Assembly (NCBI GenBank): GCA_963169355.1
Contig: CAUJCR010000002.1
Coordinates: 248,001-312,000, forward strand
DNA from: Bacteroidota bacterium
Lineage (GTDB): Bacteria > Bacteroidota > Bacteroidia > B-17B0 > Aurantibacillaceae
DNA length: 64,000 nt
Direction: 5' to 3'
A model generated the notes under the pieces. That model had not been told where the DNA came from. It ran no database searches and worked only from the letters and a program-made list of their open reading frames with translations. A program made the translations under genes and the position numbers. Shown here piece after piece: positions 29,615 through 39,597 of this stretch. Positions within the stretch are counted from its first letter, which is position 1, and the number at the start of each line of letters is the position of its first letter.

Positions 29615-30358
29615 TTAGCTATTGCTACCTTTTTCCAATTCAATACTTTTTGGAAATAATATATTATTTTCTAGATGAATGTGTTGATGTAAATCATTCT
29701 CAAACTCTTCTAATTTATGATACGCTAACTTATAGGTTGTACAAGCCCCAACTGGAGCTTTATAATCATTCGAAAGTTCTTTAATGGTTTTAAAAATATT
29801 GCCAACAAGTTCGTGCTCATCTTCCATCATCTGAATAGGTGTTTTAATAGTGCCAAAACTTGTAGTAGCATTTTGATTGGTTGTAGGACTATTAACTAAC
29901 TCTTTAATATATGGAAACAACACATTTTCTTCTTTAATGATATGAGCGCTCAGTTCATTAGCCGCTTGCATAAACAACTCGTTTATCGTTACTAATTCAA
30001 TATGTTCTTCGCCATGCACTTTGGCTACCTTATTAATATATTCCGTAATTAATGGTAAGTTTTTTTTAACATACTGGTGATGCGTGTTGATGATATAATC
30101 TATTAAAAAATCTAATTTCCACTCATTAAAATTTTGAGCATTAGAGTTAGTGCCCGAATTATAAATATTTAATTCTGCTATCAGCTCATCAACAGTAACT
30201 GTTTTGTTTTTGCAAACTTGGTTTAATGTTTTTTTTCCTCCACAACAAAAATCAATGTGGTGTTTCTTAAACACATCCGCTTTTCCTAAGTTTAAAGTTA
30301 CTATTTCTCCTACAGTGGTATCACCTGTAATTACAATATTCCCCGCGTTCATAATCAT
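29615..30358 (-). CDS. ric: iron-sulfur cluster repair di-iron protein (Ric/ScdA/YtfE)
   Basis: 247 residues. The N-terminal ScdA_N domain contains the CC pair in HIDFCCGGKKTL. A hemerythrin-like four-helix domain follows, with His and Glu iron ligands in HHQYVKKN, HIIKEENVLFP, MEDEHELVG and HIHLENNILFP. The protein restores Fe-S clusters damaged by nitric oxide or oxidants in the cytoplasm. It is cotranscribed with the upstream thioredoxin-like gene (21 bp gap), and a Crp/Fnr-like palindrome lies before that gene, fitting NO control. Confidence 0.93.
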   Translation of the reverse strand: MIMNAGNIVITGDTTVGEIVTLNLGKADVFKKHHIDFCCGGKKTLNQVCKNKTVTVDELIAELNIYNSGTNSNAQNFNEWKLDFLIDYIINTHHQYVKKNLPLITEYINKVAKVHGEEHIELVTINELFMQAANELSAHIIKEENVLFPYIKELVNSPTTNQNATTSFGTIKTPIQMMEDEHELVGNIFKTIKELSNDYKAPVGACTTYKLAYHKLEEFENDLHQHIHLENNILFPKSIELEKGSNS

Positions 30359-31937: not shown

Positions 31938-32023
31938 AAATGAAATTAGAATTTTAAATCGGATATTTATGTCCTTAATTAGAGAGTATGCTTTGCGACG
32001 AATTCAAATACAAAACAACTAAG

Positions 32024-33853
32024 ATGAACTCAACCAATGTTCATACATTTCATATTCCTGTAATGGGGTTAGCTTTTACAATTGACACTCCTATAAAGGT
32101 CGCTAAATACGGCATATCTAGTGTTATCAGCATTATGGAAGACCATCTCATTGAACAAATGAGAGAATGTATTTGTAAAAAAGAAGGAAAACCTTATGAG
32201 TTTATTTCTGAAAAAGAAAATGATTATAGGGCGAAACGAATTACAGCATATCTCAATTTGTTACATGACGTTGTTCAGGAACAAGTAGAAAATTTACGTT
32301 TAGAGGACTTTGAACAAAATACTGATATTAATCAGTATTTTGAATTATTACCAGATACCAATAGAATAAAACAAATTTACAAGACTCTGGCGTTATATAA
32401 TCCTAAGGATAAAAAAGTAATGTATGATAAACTTAGGAAATCAATTATAGCAGGTTCGATAGATGTAAATATTATGACAAAATTGGATAAAACCAATTAT
32501 GATGAACATGATAACGAACTTCCTAGCGAATTTTCAGATGCGCTATCTGCCCTACGAGGATATGCGCTAAGTAAATTAGAATCCTCTATTGTATTTTCTG
32601 CCGGCCTAAATCCAAGATTATTTAGTTACTGCGAACAATTTGAAGATTTTTACCCAGATGAAAATGGAATTATAAAAAAGAAAATTATATTAAAAGTAAG
32701 CGATTATCGTTCAGCTTTAATTCAAGGAAAATATTTAGCAAAAAAAGGATTATGGGTTTCGGAATTTAGAATAGAATCAGGCATAAATTGTGGAGGGCAC
32801 GCATTTGTGTCCGACGGTATATTATTTGGTCCTATTTTAGAAGATTTTAAAAATAAACGAGATGAGTTATTGAAAGAAATCTATCAAGAATGGGAGAAAG
32901 CCATTCAAAACAAAGGCAAAAAATTATTCAAAACAACGCCTCAACTTAAAATCACTGCTCAAGGCGGTATAGGTACCGCACAAGAGAACAATTTTCTACT
33001 CAATTACTATAATTTAGATTCTATTGGTTGGGGTAGCCCTTTTTTATTGGTTCCTGAAACAACCAACGTAGATTCGGAAACATTAGAAAAATTATCAAAG
33101 GCTAAAAAAACAGATTATTATTTAAGCGATGCATCGCCATTAGGTGTGCCGTTTAATAATTTTAGATTAAGTAGTTCCGAGGAACAACGCAAGCAACGTA
33201 TTAATAAAAATAGACCTGGAAGCCCTTGTTACAAAAAATTCTTATCAAACAATACCGAATTCACCGATAGAGTTATTTGCACAGCTTCAAGGCAATATCA
33301 AGATTTAAAAATCAAACAGCTAACATCTACCTTTACCGATAAAACAATTTTAGATAAACACATTGAAAAAGTAATGGAAAAAGATTGTTTATGCGAAGGA
33401 CTAGGAGCATCGGCGTTACTGGTTAATAATGCTAAACTTCCTCACAAATTAAAAGCTGTTACAATTTGCCCAGGTCCTAATTTGGCTTATTTCTCGGGAG
33501 TGTTCTCATTTAAACAAATGGTAGATCATATATACGGAAGAACAAATTTATTAAACGAACTATTCAGACCAAACTGTTTTATAAACGAACTTGAACTCTA
33601 TATTGATTATATTAAAAAGGAGTTCGAAAAATTTATCATCGGTCTTTCACACCGAAACAGTTCCTATTTTAATCAGTTTAAAAAGAATTTAAACGACGGC
33701 ATTAGTTATTATCAAAATTTATATCAAAAAGTAAAAGAAGCCGAAGCTTTATTTCCAAACTCAAATATAGAGTTACTTCAAAATTTACAACAAAACATTA
33801 ATCGTTTATTTAATCAATCCATCAATGAAGATGTGAAACCAATTAGTTTATAA
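32024..33853 (+). CDS. nitronate-monooxygenase-like TIM-barrel protein of unknown function
   Basis: 609 residues from the ATG at 32024; the frame is open from 31988, but the first 12 residues look non-native. The N-terminus (HIPVMGLAFTIDTPIKVAKYGISSVISI) reads like strand 1 and helix 1 of a flavin TIM barrel. GINCGGH (about 253-259) and ITAQGGIGTAQE (about 310-321), then GWGSPFLLVPE, correspond in order to the GGH, phosphate-binding GGI and G-x-x-FL-x-x-E motifs of nitronate monooxygenases. Large insertions and a Cys-containing C-terminus (KDCLCEGLG, KAVTICPGPNLAY) have no counterpart there. Substrate unknown. It is the first gene of a seven-gene operon, 5 bp before tryptophanase. Confidence 0.65.
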   Translation: MNSTNVHTFHIPVMGLAFTIDTPIKVAKYGISSVISIMEDHLIEQMRECICKKEGKPYEFISEKENDYRAKRITAYLNLLHDVVQEQVENLRLEDFEQNTDINQYFELLPDTNRIKQIYKTLALYNPKDKKVMYDKLRKSIIAGSIDVNIMTKLDKTNYDEHDNELPSEFSDALSALRGYALSKLESSIVFSAGLNPRLFSYCEQFEDFYPDENGIIKKKIILKVSDYRSALIQGKYLAKKGLWVSEFRIESGINCGGHAFVSDGILFGPILEDFKNKRDELLKEIYQEWEKAIQNKGKKLFKTTPQLKITAQGGIGTAQENNFLLNYYNLDSIGWGSPFLLVPETTNVDSETLEKLSKAKKTDYYLSDASPLGVPFNNFRLSSSEEQRKQRINKNRPGSPCYKKFLSNNTEFTDRVICTASRQYQDLKIKQLTSTFTDKTILDKHIEKVMEKDCLCEGLGASALLVNNAKLPHKLKAVTICPGPNLAYFSGVFSFKQMVDHIYGRTNLLNELFRPNCFINELELYIDYIKKEFEKFIIGLSHRNSSYFNQFKKNLNDGISYYQNLYQKVKEAEALFPNSNIELLQNLQQNINRLFNQSINEDVKPISL

Positions 33854-33858
33854 GAATT

Positions 33859-35241
33859 ATGAGTGAAAAGATGAAAACCCTAACAGAACCATTTAAGATA
33901 AAAATGGTAGAACCCTTAAGAGTAACAACTGAGGAGTATAGAAAAGATGTATTAAAAAAAGCAGGTTATAATCCGTTTTTAATTAGTTCCAAAGATGTAT
34001 TTATTGATTTTTTAACGGATAGTGGAACGGGCGCTATGAGCGACAAGCAATGGTCGGGCATTATGATGGGTGATGAAAGTTATGCTGGTGCTAGAAGCTG
34101 GGAGCACTTAGAACGAGTTGTAAAAGATTTAACTGGTATGCCTTATATCTTACCCACACATCAAGGGCGTGCAGCCGAACGAATTTTATATGGCATATTA
34201 GGAGGAAAAGATAAAATATTTATTAGCAACACTCACTTTGACACAACGCGTGCTAATATTGAATACACTGGGGCTACAGCTATAGATATTATATATGATG
34301 AGGCTAAAAATCCTGAGAACGACTTACCATTTAAAGGTAATATAGATTTAATAAAACTCGAACAATTAATCGCAGAACATGGCAAGGAGAATGTTGCTGC
34401 AATTGTAATGACTGTAACAAATAACTCCTCTGGCGGGCAACCGGTTAGCATGGAAAACATGTTAGCTGTTCGAAAAATTTGTGATTCGTATCAAATACCG
34501 ATGGTGATTGATGGTTGCAGGATTGCCGAGAACGCTTACTTTGTGAAGCATCGTGAAGCAGGATTTGCAAATAAATCTTGTGAAGATATTGCCAAACAAA
34601 TGTTGCGCTTAGGTGATGCGTTTGTAATGAGTGCAAAAAAAGACGGTATGGTAAATATGGGTGGTTTATTAACCGTTAAAGACGAAGCGCTTTCTGTAAA
34701 ATGTAAAAATCTTTTAATCATCTCCGAAGGGTTTACTACTTATGGTGGTTTATCAGGACGTGATATGGAAGCTTTAGCCATTGGATTAACCGAAGTGTTT
34801 GATGAAGATTATTTACATTATAGAATTAGAAGCACCGCATATTTAGGAGAAAAATTAAAAGCAAAAGGTGTTCCTGTGGTGTGGCCAATTGGTGGACACG
34901 CTGTTTATGTTGATGCTAAAAAACTATACAATCAAATTCCAGTTAATGAGTATCCAGGACAAGCCTTGGTGTGTGATTTATACATCAAAGGCGGCATTAG
35001 AGCAGTAGAAATAGGTAGTTTAATGTTTGGTAAATATGATGAGAAAGGGGCACTTATTCCTGCCACCAATGAACTTGTAAGATTAGCCATTCCACGAAGG
35101 GTTTATACTCAAAGTCATATTGATTATGTGTTAGACATTTTTGATGACATACTAGAATTAAGAAACCAAACCAAAGGGTATAAAATAACGTATGAACCGC
35201 CGTTTTTAAGGCACTTTACAGCAAGATTAGATAAAATATAA
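33859..35241 (+). CDS. tnaA: tryptophanase (tryptophan indole-lyase)
   Basis: 460 residues of the PLP-dependent beta-eliminating lyase family. The PLP lysine is Lys261 in SAKKDGMVNMGG. Two positions that separate tryptophanase from tyrosine phenol-lyase point to tryptophanase: Asp128 in HFDTTR (Asp137 in E. coli TnaA, Thr124 in TPL) and Ile385 in RAVEIGS (Val in TnaA, Arg381 in TPL). The expected reaction is tryptophan to indole, pyruvate and ammonia. No tnaC leader or TnaB permease is seen. Tyrosine phenol-lyase follows 38 bp downstream. Confidence 0.9.
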   Translation: MSEKMKTLTEPFKIKMVEPLRVTTEEYRKDVLKKAGYNPFLISSKDVFIDFLTDSGTGAMSDKQWSGIMMGDESYAGARSWEHLERVVKDLTGMPYILPTHQGRAAERILYGILGGKDKIFISNTHFDTTRANIEYTGATAIDIIYDEAKNPENDLPFKGNIDLIKLEQLIAEHGKENVAAIVMTVTNNSSGGQPVSMENMLAVRKICDSYQIPMVIDGCRIAENAYFVKHREAGFANKSCEDIAKQMLRLGDAFVMSAKKDGMVNMGGLLTVKDEALSVKCKNLLIISEGFTTYGGLSGRDMEALAIGLTEVFDEDYLHYRIRSTAYLGEKLKAKGVPVVWPIGGHAVYVDAKKLYNQIPVNEYPGQALVCDLYIKGGIRAVEIGSLMFGKYDEKGALIPATNELVRLAIPRRVYTQSHIDYVLDIFDDILELRNQTKGYKITYEPPFLRHFTARLDKI

Positions 35242-35279
35242 TCGTTTTAAATTAACTCGTATAATAAAAAAAAAGAGAT

Positions 35280-36665
35280 ATGAAAACAATAAAAAAACGC
35301 TCATGGGCTGAGCCTTACAAAATGAAGATGGTAGAACTTCTTAAAATGACTACCGAAAAACAACGTTTAAAAGCTATTAAAGATGCAGGTTACAATACTT
35401 TTTTATTACCATCAGCCGATGTATATATTGATTTGTTGACAGATAGTGGTACTAACTCTATGAGCGACCGCCAGTGGAGTGCCTTTATGACTGGCGATGA
35501 AGCCTATGCAGGTAGTAAAAGTTATTACATCTTAGAAGAAACCATTCAAAAATATTATGGTTATAAATATGTAGTTCCTACACACCAAGGCAGAGCAGCC
35601 GAAAACATCTTATCTCAAATCTTAATTAAAAAAGGAGATATTGTTCCAGGCAACATGTACTTTACTACAACCCGTTTACATCAAGAATTAGCAGGTGGTA
35701 TTTTTGCTGATGTTATTATTGATGAAGCACACGATCCATTAAGCGAACATCCTTTTAAAGGAAATGTAGATATTGCTAAACTTGATAAATTGGTAAAAAA
35801 ACATGGTGCTAAAAAAATTCCTTACGTGTGTGTAGCCACTAATGTAAACATGGCTGGCGGACAACCAGTAAGTATGGAAAATCTTAAAGAATTAAGAGCT
35901 TATACTAAAAAACACGGCATAAGAATTATTCATGATATGACACGTGTTGCTGAAAACGCATTTTTTATTCAGCAACGTGAAAAAGGATACGCTAAAAAAA
36001 CAATAGCTCAAATAGTTAAAGAAATTTGTTCTTATACCGATGGTGCCACAATGAGCGCCAAAAAAGATGCTCTTGTAAATATAGGTGGATTTATGGCAAT
36101 TAATGATTGGGACGTGTTTGAAGAAGCCAGAAACTTAGTAGTAGTGTATGAAGGATTACATACTTATGGCGGATTAGCTGGTCGTGATATGGAAGCAGTA
36201 GCAGTGGGAATTGTTGAGAGTTTAAATGACGACCATCAAAAAGCACGTGTTGGTCAAGTAGAGTACCTTGGTCATAAAATGATGGAATACAATATTCCAA
36301 TTGTAAAACCAATTGGTGGGCACGGTATTTTTGTTGATGCAAAAGCATTTTTACCTCATCTTACTCAAGACCAATTTCCAGCACAAACTTTAGCTGCTGA
36401 ACTTTATGTAGATTCTGGAGTAAGAACTATGGAGCGTGGTATTGTATCCGCAGGAAGAAAACCAAATGGCGAAAACTATTATCCAAAACTTGAATTGGTA
36501 CGATTTACAATTCCAAGACGGGTTTATACACAAGCGCACATGGATGTAATTGCTGAATCTGCCGCTGCAGTTTATGAAAGAAGAAAATCCATTAAAGGTT
36601 TAAAGATGGTTTATGAACCTAAGTATCTACGTTTCTTCCAAGCTCGATTTGAAAAACTGAAATAA
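35280..36665 (+). CDS. tpl: tyrosine phenol-lyase
   Basis: 461 residues, alignable throughout with Citrobacter TPL as I recall it. PLP Lys262 lies in SAKKDALVNIGG. Thr129 (YFTTTR) and Arg386 (RTMERGI) are at the positions of TPL Thr124 and Arg381, the latter needed for phenol-ring specificity. The reaction is tyrosine to phenol, pyruvate and ammonia, and is reversible. It arose by duplication with the adjacent tryptophanase. Having both genes in one operon is uncommon as far as I know. Confidence 0.92.
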   Translation: MKTIKKRSWAEPYKMKMVELLKMTTEKQRLKAIKDAGYNTFLLPSADVYIDLLTDSGTNSMSDRQWSAFMTGDEAYAGSKSYYILEETIQKYYGYKYVVPTHQGRAAENILSQILIKKGDIVPGNMYFTTTRLHQELAGGIFADVIIDEAHDPLSEHPFKGNVDIAKLDKLVKKHGAKKIPYVCVATNVNMAGGQPVSMENLKELRAYTKKHGIRIIHDMTRVAENAFFIQQREKGYAKKTIAQIVKEICSYTDGATMSAKKDALVNIGGFMAINDWDVFEEARNLVVVYEGLHTYGGLAGRDMEAVAVGIVESLNDDHQKARVGQVEYLGHKMMEYNIPIVKPIGGHGIFVDAKAFLPHLTQDQFPAQTLAAELYVDSGVRTMERGIVSAGRKPNGENYYPKLELVRFTIPRRVYTQAHMDVIAESAAAVYERRKSIKGLKMVYEPKYLRFFQARFEKLK

Positions 36666-36690: not shown

Positions 36691-37113
36691 ATGAAATTAA
36701 AAGCTCGACATACTTTTTTTATTCTTAGTGCTTTATTTTTAATCTATTCAGTTAGTATCTATTTAAAACCTTTGTCGGTAAATACTGATGATAGATTTGA
36801 CAAAACAGCTGCAGCTAATGGTAAATTAGTTTGGCAAAAATATAATTGTCAAGCCTGTCATCAGTTTTATGGCCTTGGTGGATACCTTGGTCCCGACTTA
36901 ACAAACATTTTATCTCAGCCCGGGAAAGGTGAAGCACTTGTAAAAGCTATGCTAAAAACAGGAACCAAACAAATGCCCGCTTTTCAATTATCCGAAAAAG
37001 AAACGCAAGAATTAATAGAGTTTTTAAAATCAACCGACGCTAGTGGCAGCGCAGATCCTAGAAATTTTGAAAATACAAACTTTGGAATGATTGAACGATA
37101 TGAAACTAAATAA
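36691..37113 (+). CDS. membrane-anchored cytochrome c, NorC-like
   Basis: 140 residues. An N-terminal membrane helix (about 8-26) is followed by one cytochrome c domain with heme motif CQACH (Cys53, Cys56, His57) and probable axial Met95 (KQMPAF). The layout and length match NorC, the small subunit of cytochrome-c-dependent nitric oxide reductase. Its 3' end overlaps the NorB-like gene, so the two are translationally linked and very likely form one complex in the inner membrane. Confidence 0.87.
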   Translation: MKLKARHTFFILSALFLIYSVSIYLKPLSVNTDDRFDKTAAANGKLVWQKYNCQACHQFYGLGGYLGPDLTNILSQPGKGEALVKAMLKTGTKQMPAFQLSEKETQELIEFLKSTDASGSADPRNFENTNFGMIERYETK

Positions 37114-38425
37114 ACTACATATTGGAAATCTTTTTCTAGTTACAGCCATTATCATGTTGCTTTTGGGCTTAGGTTTTGGGTTACTAGCTGCGTTTATTTA
37201 TTTGTATCCAAACTTTTTAAAAGATTCTATTGGTTTTATCTCATTAAGACCTCTTCATGTTTCTTCAGCAATGTTTTGGATTATCTTAGGCGCAACTGGA
37301 TGCGTATATAATGGATTAAGAGTTGTAACCAACAAGCCTATAACAAATCGAGTAGCTATTATGCAATGGCTATTATGGATCATTTCAATCATTGGTATTT
37401 TTATTTCGTATTTCACCCATCAATTTGGAGGCAGAGAATACTGGGAGTTCAATCCAGTGTGGGCATTACCTATTGCCATAGCTTGGTTATTATTCTTAAG
37501 TAATTTTTATAGTCATATAAACAATGTACGCAAATGGCCTGTGTATATGTGGATGTGGCTCACTGGCTTAACTTTTTTCTTATTTACTTTTATAGAAAAT
37601 TACCTTTGGCTGTTCCCTTATTTTAGAGAGCATTTTATAACCGATATGACCATTCAATGGAAAGTAAATGGTTCGTTAGTTGGTTCATGGAATCAAATGA
37701 TTTATGGCACAGCATTTTTCTTAATGGACAGAATTTCAGGAACTAAAAAAGTAGGAAAAAACAACTTAGCATTTGCCATGTATTTTTTAGGGTTATTTAA
37801 TTTAATGTTTAATTGGGGTCATCACATCTATACACTTCCAACCGAAAAATACATTCGCTATATAGGCTATATAGTGAGTATGACAGAGTGGGTTTTCTTT
37901 GTTAAAATTATTTATAACTGGAAAGGAGCTGTAAGCGACATACAAAAACACTATCACTATTTCCCTTACAAATTTATAATGGCATCCGATATTTGGGTGT
38001 TTATAAATATGGGACAAGCTTGTTTATTCTCAATACCAGCTATTAATATCTACACGCATGGCACACATGTAACCGTAGCTCATGCAATGGGCACTACCAT
38101 AGGAATAAATACTATGATTTTACTAGCCGCTTGTTTTGAGTTTTTAAAACCCGACTTGTACAAAGAAACTTCTCTCAAAGCACTAAATAGAGTGTTTTGG
38201 TTTTTACAAATAAGCCTCGTGGTTTTTTGGACATCATTAAATATAGCAGGTATCAAAAAAGGACTTTGGCAACTCAGCAATCCTCAATCAAGTTATAGTA
38301 AAATGATGGACTCGCTTGAACCTTATTTTATAACATTTATTATAGCAGGTTTTGGTTTGTTTGTTTCGCTAAGCATTATTGCTTATAAATTACTCAAGCA
38401 TTCTAAAAAAAGTATTTTTAATTAA
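37091..38425 (+). CDS. divergent NorB-like heme-copper oxidoreductase subunit
   Basis: 444 residues, about 12 membrane helices. Compared with Pseudomonas cNOR as remembered, spacing is nearly exact: His56 (heme b), His244 and His245 (FeB), Glu266 (Glu280) and His331 (heme b3) are kept. But the first FeB ligand is Asn193 (His207 in cNOR), the catalytic Glu211 is Val197, Glu215 is Asn201, and the second heme b ligand is Met333 (His349; HAM instead of HGH). It belongs to the NOR branch of heme-copper oxidases, but NO reduction is not assured. An in-frame ATG three codons in could also be the start. Overlaps the cytochrome c gene. Confidence 0.8.
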   Translation: MNDMKLNKLHIGNLFLVTAIIMLLLGLGFGLLAAFIYLYPNFLKDSIGFISLRPLHVSSAMFWIILGATGCVYNGLRVVTNKPITNRVAIMQWLLWIISIIGIFISYFTHQFGGREYWEFNPVWALPIAIAWLLFLSNFYSHINNVRKWPVYMWMWLTGLTFFLFTFIENYLWLFPYFREHFITDMTIQWKVNGSLVGSWNQMIYGTAFFLMDRISGTKKVGKNNLAFAMYFLGLFNLMFNWGHHIYTLPTEKYIRYIGYIVSMTEWVFFVKIIYNWKGAVSDIQKHYHYFPYKFIMASDIWVFINMGQACLFSIPAINIYTHGTHVTVAHAMGTTIGINTMILLAACFEFLKPDLYKETSLKALNRVFWFLQISLVVFWTSLNIAGIKKGLWQLSNPQSSYSKMMDSLEPYFITFIIAGFGLFVSLSIIAYKLLKHSKKSIFN

Positions 38426-38433
38426 TTCACATC

Positions 38434-39597
38434 ATGAAAGCAGTTGATTTACATGACCTAAAAACAGCATATGCTTACAAGAGTAATGCTGATTTAAAAC
38501 TAACACATTTTGTTTTTAATACGCTTCAAAAACCCATTTTATTGGGTCTATTAAAATCATGTGCTAACGGAATAGTTAAATACAATCTTCCGTTTCAATC
38601 TATAATTAAAAAAACAATCTATAAATTATTTTGTGCAGGAGAAAATATCGAAGAAGCTTTTAAGCTCATACGCTATTTAGATTCTTATCACGTAAAATCT
38701 GTTTTAGATTATGTTTCGGAAGGTGAGAAAACTGAAGCAGCCTTTTCTTTGAATGCCAAAACTATACTAGAGAATGTGATTAGAGTTGGAAAAGAATGTC
38801 CTGGAAATTATATTAGTGTAAAAATAACAGGATTAGAAGATCCTGATTTCTTAGGTAAAATAAATAGTAAAACATTCCCAATTAATAATCCTAGGTTTGA
38901 TAAATTACTTGAACGTGTGGATGCTATTTGTAATGCTGCACAAAAACATCAAGTAATAGTATATATAGATGCCGAAGATAGGTATATGCAAGATATTATA
39001 GATGCTATTACCGAACACATGATGGAAAAATACAACACACAACAAGTTGTAGTATTTAATACATTACAAATGTATTTAAAAGACCGCCTCAAATACCTAG
39101 AAGGTCTTATTGCAACAGCAAAACAAAAAAAATATATTGCAGGAATAAAACTAGTACGTGGTGCCTACGTAGAAAAAGAAAGAGAGACAGCCTTAAAAGA
39201 AAAAAGAGAATCTCCAGTATTTGATACGAAAGATCAAACTGATAAGTCATTTAACGCTGCGGTTGAGCTTTGTCTTCAAAATCATGCGTTAATTGCCACA
39301 TGCATCGCCTCACACAATTACAATAGCACTCAATTAGCGCTCGATTTAATGCAAAAATATCATATTACTGATATTAACAAAGTACGATTTTCTCAACTTT
39401 ATGGTATGTGTGATGGCATTACATTTAATCTAGCTGCTGCTGGATATAGTGTTTCTAAATATTTACCGTATGGAGAGGTAAAAAAAGCTATACCATATCT
39501 CATCCGCCGTTCCGAAGAAAACACCTCTATTAACGGACAGGTAAATGATGAACTACACCGACTACAAAAAGAAATAAATAATAGAAAACACCATTAA
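38434..39597 (+). CDS. putA: proline dehydrogenase
   Basis: 387 residues of the single-domain PRODH type (TIM barrel, FAD). The C-terminal barrel motifs are clear: IKLVRGAYVEKERETA, CIASHNYNS and VRFSQLYGMCDGIT, YGEVKKAIPYLIRRSEEN. The last carries the Arg-Arg pair that binds proline carboxylate. It oxidises proline to pyrroline-5-carboxylate and reduces quinone at the inner membrane. No P5C dehydrogenase is nearby. It lies 8 bp after the NorB-like gene, linking an electron donor to a possible terminal reductase. Confidence 0.93.
   Translation: MKAVDLHDLKTAYAYKSNADLKLTHFVFNTLQKPILLGLLKSCANGIVKYNLPFQSIIKKTIYKLFCAGENIEEAFKLIRYLDSYHVKSVLDYVSEGEKTEAAFSLNAKTILENVIRVGKECPGNYISVKITGLEDPDFLGKINSKTFPINNPRFDKLLERVDAICNAAQKHQVIVYIDAEDRYMQDIIDAITEHMMEKYNTQQVVVFNTLQMYLKDRLKYLEGLIATAKQKKYIAGIKLVRGAYVEKERETALKEKRESPVFDTKDQTDKSFNAAVELCLQNHALIATCIASHNYNSTQLALDLMQKYHITDINKVRFSQLYGMCDGITFNLAAAGYSVSKYLPYGEVKKAIPYLIRRSEENTSINGQVNDELHRLQKEINNRKHH

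Follow-up and report, generated by a model that had tools for sequence, protein, structure and literature searches.

The heme-copper superfamily is commonly defined by a signature of six histidines (PMC3413370). Within it, the cytochrome-c-type NO reductases (cNOR) combine a NorC-type heme c subunit with a NorB subunit carrying three histidines and a glutamate at FeB and a bis-His heme b. The model cNOR requires NorQ for FeB insertion and is inactive without FeB, whereas qNOR needs no NorQ (PMC9976466), and a Glu-to-Gln variant of Paracoccus NorC shows background activity only (PMC4816578). A 2025 survey distinguishes the NOR classes cNOR, qNOR, bNOR, eNOR, gNOR, sNOR and nNOR and names the Bacteroidota as the main nosZ 'terminators', with 53% of nosZ-bearing 'terminator' genomes (PMC12569097). 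For Cloacibacterium CB-01, an N2O-sink isolate, a cNor and minor NO reductase activity have been reported (PMC11168931), and other Cloacibacterium are listed with cnorB (PMC11879220). The gene described here encodes a protein that resembles cNOR and the cbb3 oxidases in fold and departs from both at its metal ligands.

The window is a 64,000-nucleotide stretch of a Bacteroidota genome (assembly GCA_963169355.1, contig CAUJCR010000002.1). In the ORF at 37091-38425 (+) a sequence-only reading had recognized a NorB-like protein whose FeB and heme b ligands are altered, and the frame, coordinates and residues proved to be as described. The preferred start of this gene, here called F, is the ATG at 37100, which gives a product of 441 aa and a 14-nt overlap with the upstream cytochrome gene, C; counted from this ATG, the residues earlier numbered Asn193, Val197, Asn201 and Met333 become Asn190, Val194, Asn198 and Met330. 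The best solved-structure matches in phmmer searches were NorB of 4xyd (E = 2e-17) and of 3o0r, followed by cbb3 CcoN, and a family-profile search against solved structures returned the same rank order, cNorB before cbb3 CcoN. NCBIfam and Pfam gave distant or general matches alone (COX1, with ccoN far under its cut-off). The AF2 model of F has 12 helices in the heme-copper subunit I fold and a mean pLDDT of 90.7, falling to 72-74 in the region of the His-His (HH) pair. It matches cNorB (Z 39-41) and cbb3 CcoN (Z 41-42) equally, with an rmsd of about 2.6, and qNOR and A-type oxidases more poorly (Z about 30-33; about 30 for qNOR 3ayf); it is closer to the C-type enzymes (cbb3/cNOR, TM 0.84-0.87) than to B-type ba3 (TM <= 0.75). 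Coordinates of the locus and of the residues discussed below are collected in the table.

Table. Features of the F locus in window coordinates; residue numbers count from the ATG at 37100.
Feature	Position	Strand	Remarks
RIC/ScdA di-iron Fe-S repair protein (nitrosative stress)	29615..30358	-	TIGR03652 above cut-off
621-aa conserved protein, first in run	31988..33853	+	no Pfam/NCBIfam match
Two tandem tryptophanase-like beta-eliminating lyases, upstream of C and F	33859..36665	+	near F in 52 loci
C, NorC-like membrane-anchored cytochrome c (C53xxC56H57, Met95)	36691..37113	+	140 aa; Leu62 at NorC Glu70
F, NorB/CcoN-like heme-copper-superfamily subunit I, 12 TM	37100..38425	+	441 aa
His53 codon, heme b ligand kept	37256..37258	+	invariant 59/59
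Lys188 codon, Trp in cNOR and cbb3	37661..37663	+	invariant 59/59
Asn190-Gly191 codons, site of lost helix-VI FeB/CuB His	37667..37672	+	190 variable, 191 invariant
Val194 codon, at cNOR Glu211 (FeB ligand)	37679..37681	+	from alignments
Asn198 codon, at cNOR Glu215	37691..37693	+	invariant
His241-His242 codons, helix-VII FeB/CuB His pair kept	37820..37825	+	invariant 59/59
His328 codon, heme b3 proximal His kept	38081..38083	+	58/58 covering sequences
Met330 codon, in place of heme b His349	38087..38089	+	58/58 covering sequences
Proline dehydrogenase, 8 nt past F	38434..39597	+	next gene in 27 loci

Four of the six superfamily-signature histidines remain in F: His53, His241, His242 and His328, in agreement with the earlier statement that the other heme and FeB histidines persist. 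Alignments to cNorB and CcoN place Met330, free of gaps, at the second histidine of the HxH heme pair, so that by alignment the heme b would be ligated by His53/Met330 and not by two histidines. The HxM had been called unusual, and in a mixed-family alignment the HxH is kept by cNOR, qNOR, nod-type qNOR and cbb3 alike. Both catalytic glutamates are absent, Val194 standing at Glu211 and Asn198 at Glu215; these two replacements and that of His349 by Met were all borne out by phmmer and profile alignments.

The helix-VI position requires more care. No alignment, whether by phmmer or by profile, to 3o0r, 4xyd, 3mk7 or 6xkw places a histidine there, and Met stays at the second heme b position in the profile alignments. 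The original argument from spacing was that the 51 residues from the first to the second FeB ligand position exclude an alignment slip. That spacing does fit Asn190 to His241 and matches cNOR and qNOR, but it is not decisive, since the 50 residues from Gly191 to His241 match cbb3 equally well, and the profile and mixed-family alignments set Gly191 at the lost histidine with a one-residue gap. As aligned, the helix-VI histidine is missing whichever of the two residues it maps to. Its replacement specifically by Asn did not hold: across 59 similarity-found members residue 190 is N in 30, Y in 23, G in 3, L in 2 and S in 1, and Asn190 was rejected as the key change because the position is variable. 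The assignment 'Asn for His207' may be a mapping artefact. The conserved residues that distinguish F are, on these alignments, Gly191, Lys188, Asn198 and Met330. Lys188 stands where a Trp occurs three residues before the lost histidine, and it may, speculatively, help to occupy the vacant B site.

Set against cNOR (3o0r of Pseudomonas aeruginosa and 4xyd of Roseobacter), F shares the NorC+NorB two-subunit layout, the heme b3 histidine, one heme b histidine, the HH pair, the GRExxxE calcium loop and the THGT and SxxE motifs; it differs in the ligands described above and has about 20% identity. With cbb3 CcoN (3mk7, 6xkw) it shares the RPLH, G-R/K-EYxE, DxxxQW and GxN motifs besides the helix-VI spacing, but it lacks the CuB histidine, has HxM for HxH and is paired with a NorC-like partner in place of CcoO/CcoP. 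Leu235 of F aligns to what we take to be the position of the helix-VII cross-linked Tyr of cbb3. The superfamily fold is shared with qNOR (3ayf), from which F differs in lacking the N-terminal qNOR domain, the helix-VI FeB histidine and the glutamates. In a 46-row tree, in which qNOR is represented by 3ayf and the HN proteins described below and three other qNOR rows were left out, F is a single clade (99/98); the cNOR clade (99/96) and the CcoN clade (100/100) both exclude it, and it lies outside a group of cNOR, qNOR and HN-qNOR (99/99). The outgroup root has weak support (88/76) and involves one very long branch, and no conclusion was drawn from it. In this tree F branches deeply and separately, in the neighbourhood of cNOR and cbb3.

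The same substitutions recur well beyond this genome. Similarity searching among 150 relatives gave matches in 40 genomes, most of them clear homologues (39-97% identity) and the others distant NOR at about 21%. A class-wide sample of 149 Bacteroidia genomes held 43 clear members (E < 1e-150), separated by a gap from the following matches, at around 1e-16; frame lengths (700-830 or ~450 aa), and motifs where these were examined, identify the latter as CcoN fusions, cNOR and qNOR-like proteins. Scanning public genomes by motif yielded at least 584 stretches, the best 80 of which come almost solely from records labelled Bacteroidota; its patterns include Asn198 and Met330, whose invariance in motif-found loci is not independent, and the residue-conservation counts were taken from the 59 similarity-found members. 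One family match (L105) lies on a contig labelled Thermoanaerobaculia (Acidobacteriota), where a binning error or transfer is possible. A plasmid collection contained no F, solely proteobacterial NOR/cbb3 matches under 25% identity. Invariant in all 59 members are Lys188, Gly191, Gly195, Asn198, Asn234, His241, His242, Glu263 and His320. The changes first noticed in this protein are therefore real but not a one-off, being a trait of the F clade; they are a family trait, as a phylogeny might have shown for a known family, yet one of a clade of its own outside cNOR, qNOR, nod-type qNOR and cbb3. Comparison with two close relatives gave dN/dS of about 0.03 and 0.07, values that indicate strong purifying selection. 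The loss of canonical ligands might suggest a decayed pseudo-enzyme, a reading that is scarcely conceivable for a conserved gene pair with such ratios; decay or chance loss was rejected on the low dN/dS and the same substitutions fixed in 59 members.

A NorC-like cytochrome directly precedes F in 93 of 95 loci. The closest solved relative of C is NorC of 3o0r (E = 4e-14); its heme c ligands are kept, as are Gly63 and Tyr65 of the calcium loop (NorC Gly71/Tyr73), but the position of NorC Glu70 is Leu in all 94 F-partner sequences. The NorB side of this periplasmic network is kept in F as R112/E113/E116, D/E182, N316 and H320, with E116 in 55 of 59 members; the cNOR equivalents, R134/E135/E138, D198, N335 and H339, were assigned from alignments and PMC4816578.

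In the window, F belongs to a same-strand run with gaps <= 38 nt that comprises the 621-aa protein, the two lyases, C, F and proline dehydrogenase; the RIC gene sits about 1.6 kb upstream of the run on the opposite strand. The tandem tryptophanase/tyrosine-phenol-lyase-like genes directly before C and F are a recurring arrangement, and in 33 loci the 621-aa protein is encoded no more than 6 genes away from F. Recurring neighbours in relatives are tryptophanase, NadA/NadB, Rrf2 and Crp/Fnr regulators, NosZ clusters, NrdD/G, MbnP with a diheme MauG-like protein, canonical norCBQD, nod-type qNORs and RIC. The pair of an MbnP-like copper protein and a diheme MbnH/MauG-like enzyme occurs near F in about 15 loci, in some right after it (e.g. 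L028:6671-8498 (-)). Genes for qNOR-like proteins of 776-826 aa (L028:2060-4390 (+), L066:2457-4868, L072, L094:1090-3429) lie roughly 10 kb or less from F in genomes of Saprospiraceae/Lewinellaceae and relatives; in these proteins the helix-VII HH is changed to HN, the nod-type change, and both glutamates are kept (HMWVEAFFE). The host genome also carries canonical norCBQDE (L040), nirK, and nosZ with NosL, NosD and ABC-transporter genes (L143), and is predicted from these genes to encode the nir, nor and nos steps besides F. Three RIC Fe-S repair genes occur in it (C2:277648, C21:35268, C59:47942).

Across the 149 Bacteroidia genomes, F was found in 43, NosZ in 60, cNOR or qNOR-like proteins in 17 and NirK or NirS in 17. 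NosZ is present in 34 of the 43 F genomes (OR 11.6, p = 9e-10) and RIC in 36 (OR 13), both sets of counts being phylogenetically non-independent; each association persists within strata of the other (p = 0.012-0.059), and in families of mixed state, 9 of the 10 untied cases have NosZ more often in genomes with F than in those without it (p = 0.02). NosZ is missing from nine of the 43 F genomes, and 26 genomes have NosZ without F; N2O respiration thus neither requires F nor is guaranteed by it. The altered ligand set is a shared trait of a widespread Bacteroidota family, mostly in species also able to consume N2O. NrdD showed no association with F across the 149 genomes (1/43), and a general anaerobiosis marker was rejected on that ground, NrdD standing beside F in some loci without co-occurring at the genome level. 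Any NOR was found in 9 of the 43 F genomes, and 26 genomes with F and NosZ have none. Each of the 8 cNOR genomes encodes NorQ, against 0 of the 39 F genomes that lack cNOR; the FeB-insertion chaperones NorQ and NorD are absent with F where cNOR is absent, and F, unlike cNOR, is not accompanied by NorQ/D/E.

We tentatively favour, from sequence comparison, the reading that C and F constitute an NO-handling complex that is fed by cytochrome c, is based on heme b3 and has a rebuilt B-metal site, and that it is not a classical NOR. The two would form a membrane complex of cytochrome-c-type NOR architecture with a NorC-like heme c, a low-spin heme b and a high-spin heme b3, the heme b being ligated by His/Met with a presumably raised potential. 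The B-metal site would be missing or rebuilt around H241/H242 with Lys188, Gly191 and Asn198. Electrons would pass from a periplasmic donor to heme c, heme b and heme b3, where NO or another N-oxide would bind and be processed slowly or to a non-NOR end; the complex would serve to handle NO in Bacteroidota that respire N2O, among them species with NosZ but no NOR. Chemistry at heme b3, rather than a mere relay, is suggested by the retention of the two histidines, Glu263 and the periplasmic network by the propionates, and NO or an N-oxide as the ligand by the association with RIC and NosZ. NO chemistry may nonetheless be the wrong reading, considering that cNOR without FeB is inactive (PMC9976466) and that every F partner has Leu in place of the NorC Glu that in Paracoccus cannot be changed to Gln without loss of activity (PMC4816578).

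The pair could instead be an electron-transfer module with a vestigial b3, in which electrons reach another acceptor, e.g. NosZ or its donor, by way of heme c and of a heme b with His/Met ligands and a high potential. The proximity and association of F with NosZ and the loss of the B-site ligands, with those of heme c and heme b kept, speak for such a module, but the b3 histidine, the HH pair and E263 are invariant, as is the greater part of the periplasmic network, for which a pure relay would have no need, and the genomes that have NosZ or F without the other also weigh against it; we consider it rather unlikely. It is unlikelier still that F is a true NO reductase, its FeB held by substitute ligands (HH together with Lys188, Asn198 or Glu166), and so the missing NOR of nosZ-only Bacteroidota. 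The NorC-like partner, the 26 F+NosZ genomes without cNOR or qNOR, the RIC link and the kept NOR-type THGT and SxxE motifs would all suit an enzyme of this kind. The helix-VI histidine and both glutamates are gone, however, NorC Glu70 has become Leu, and NorQ/NorD are missing, though qNOR dispenses with them (PMC9976466). Moreover, F occurs in loci beside canonical norCB, so it is not simply a substitute NOR.

A His-to-Met change of heme ligand should raise the heme potential, and a high-potential heme b would favour an NO sensor, an NO store or an enzyme acting in reverse, from NO to nitrite with electrons passed to cytochrome c. The RIC, Rrf2 and Crp/Fnr neighbours fit this improbable reading, but F has no signalling domain and the reverse direction is without direct support. 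Improbable to a far greater degree is NO dismutation, brought to mind by the His-to-Asn change in the FeB region and the Glu loss reported for the nod family (PMC3413370). Nod has the shape of qNOR and carries a fused N-terminal domain, whereas F has 441 aa, no fusion and a separate heme c subunit, lies outside the qNOR clade and is not reliably Asn at residue 190. The changed histidine of nod, as inferred from the nod-type relatives found here, since PMC3413370 does not specify which histidine it is, lies within the HH pair (HN), which is invariant in F, and these nod-type proteins are encoded by separate genes near some F genes. Clade, architecture and the intact HH pair led to the rejection of an NO dismutase identity.

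A literature search returned no description of family F, the NOR-diversity study of Murali et al. lying outside its scope, so that prior mention is possible. The 2025 survey excluded sequences without conserved ligand-binding domains (PMC12569097), and because of this curation F probably falls outside its NOR scheme. Possibly, F and C represent an undescribed respiratory or NO-metabolizing class of enzyme with the heme-copper fold in Bacteroidota. Such an enzyme would act at heme b3, its heme b would have His/Met ligands, and its B site would be poor in metal or contain lysine; it would support the respiration of N2O, and in 'nosZ-only' bacteria its gene would be annotated wrongly, as cNorB or cbb3. 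A widespread lineage with four of the six histidines and fixed replacements is a natural experiment on the function of the B metal and of heme b's second ligand. The distribution of F also follows that of N2O reductase, in the phylum from which over half of the 'terminator' genomes come, and counting F-type genes as NO reductases could lead to erroneous predictions of the N2O balance of candidate N2O-sink bacteria.
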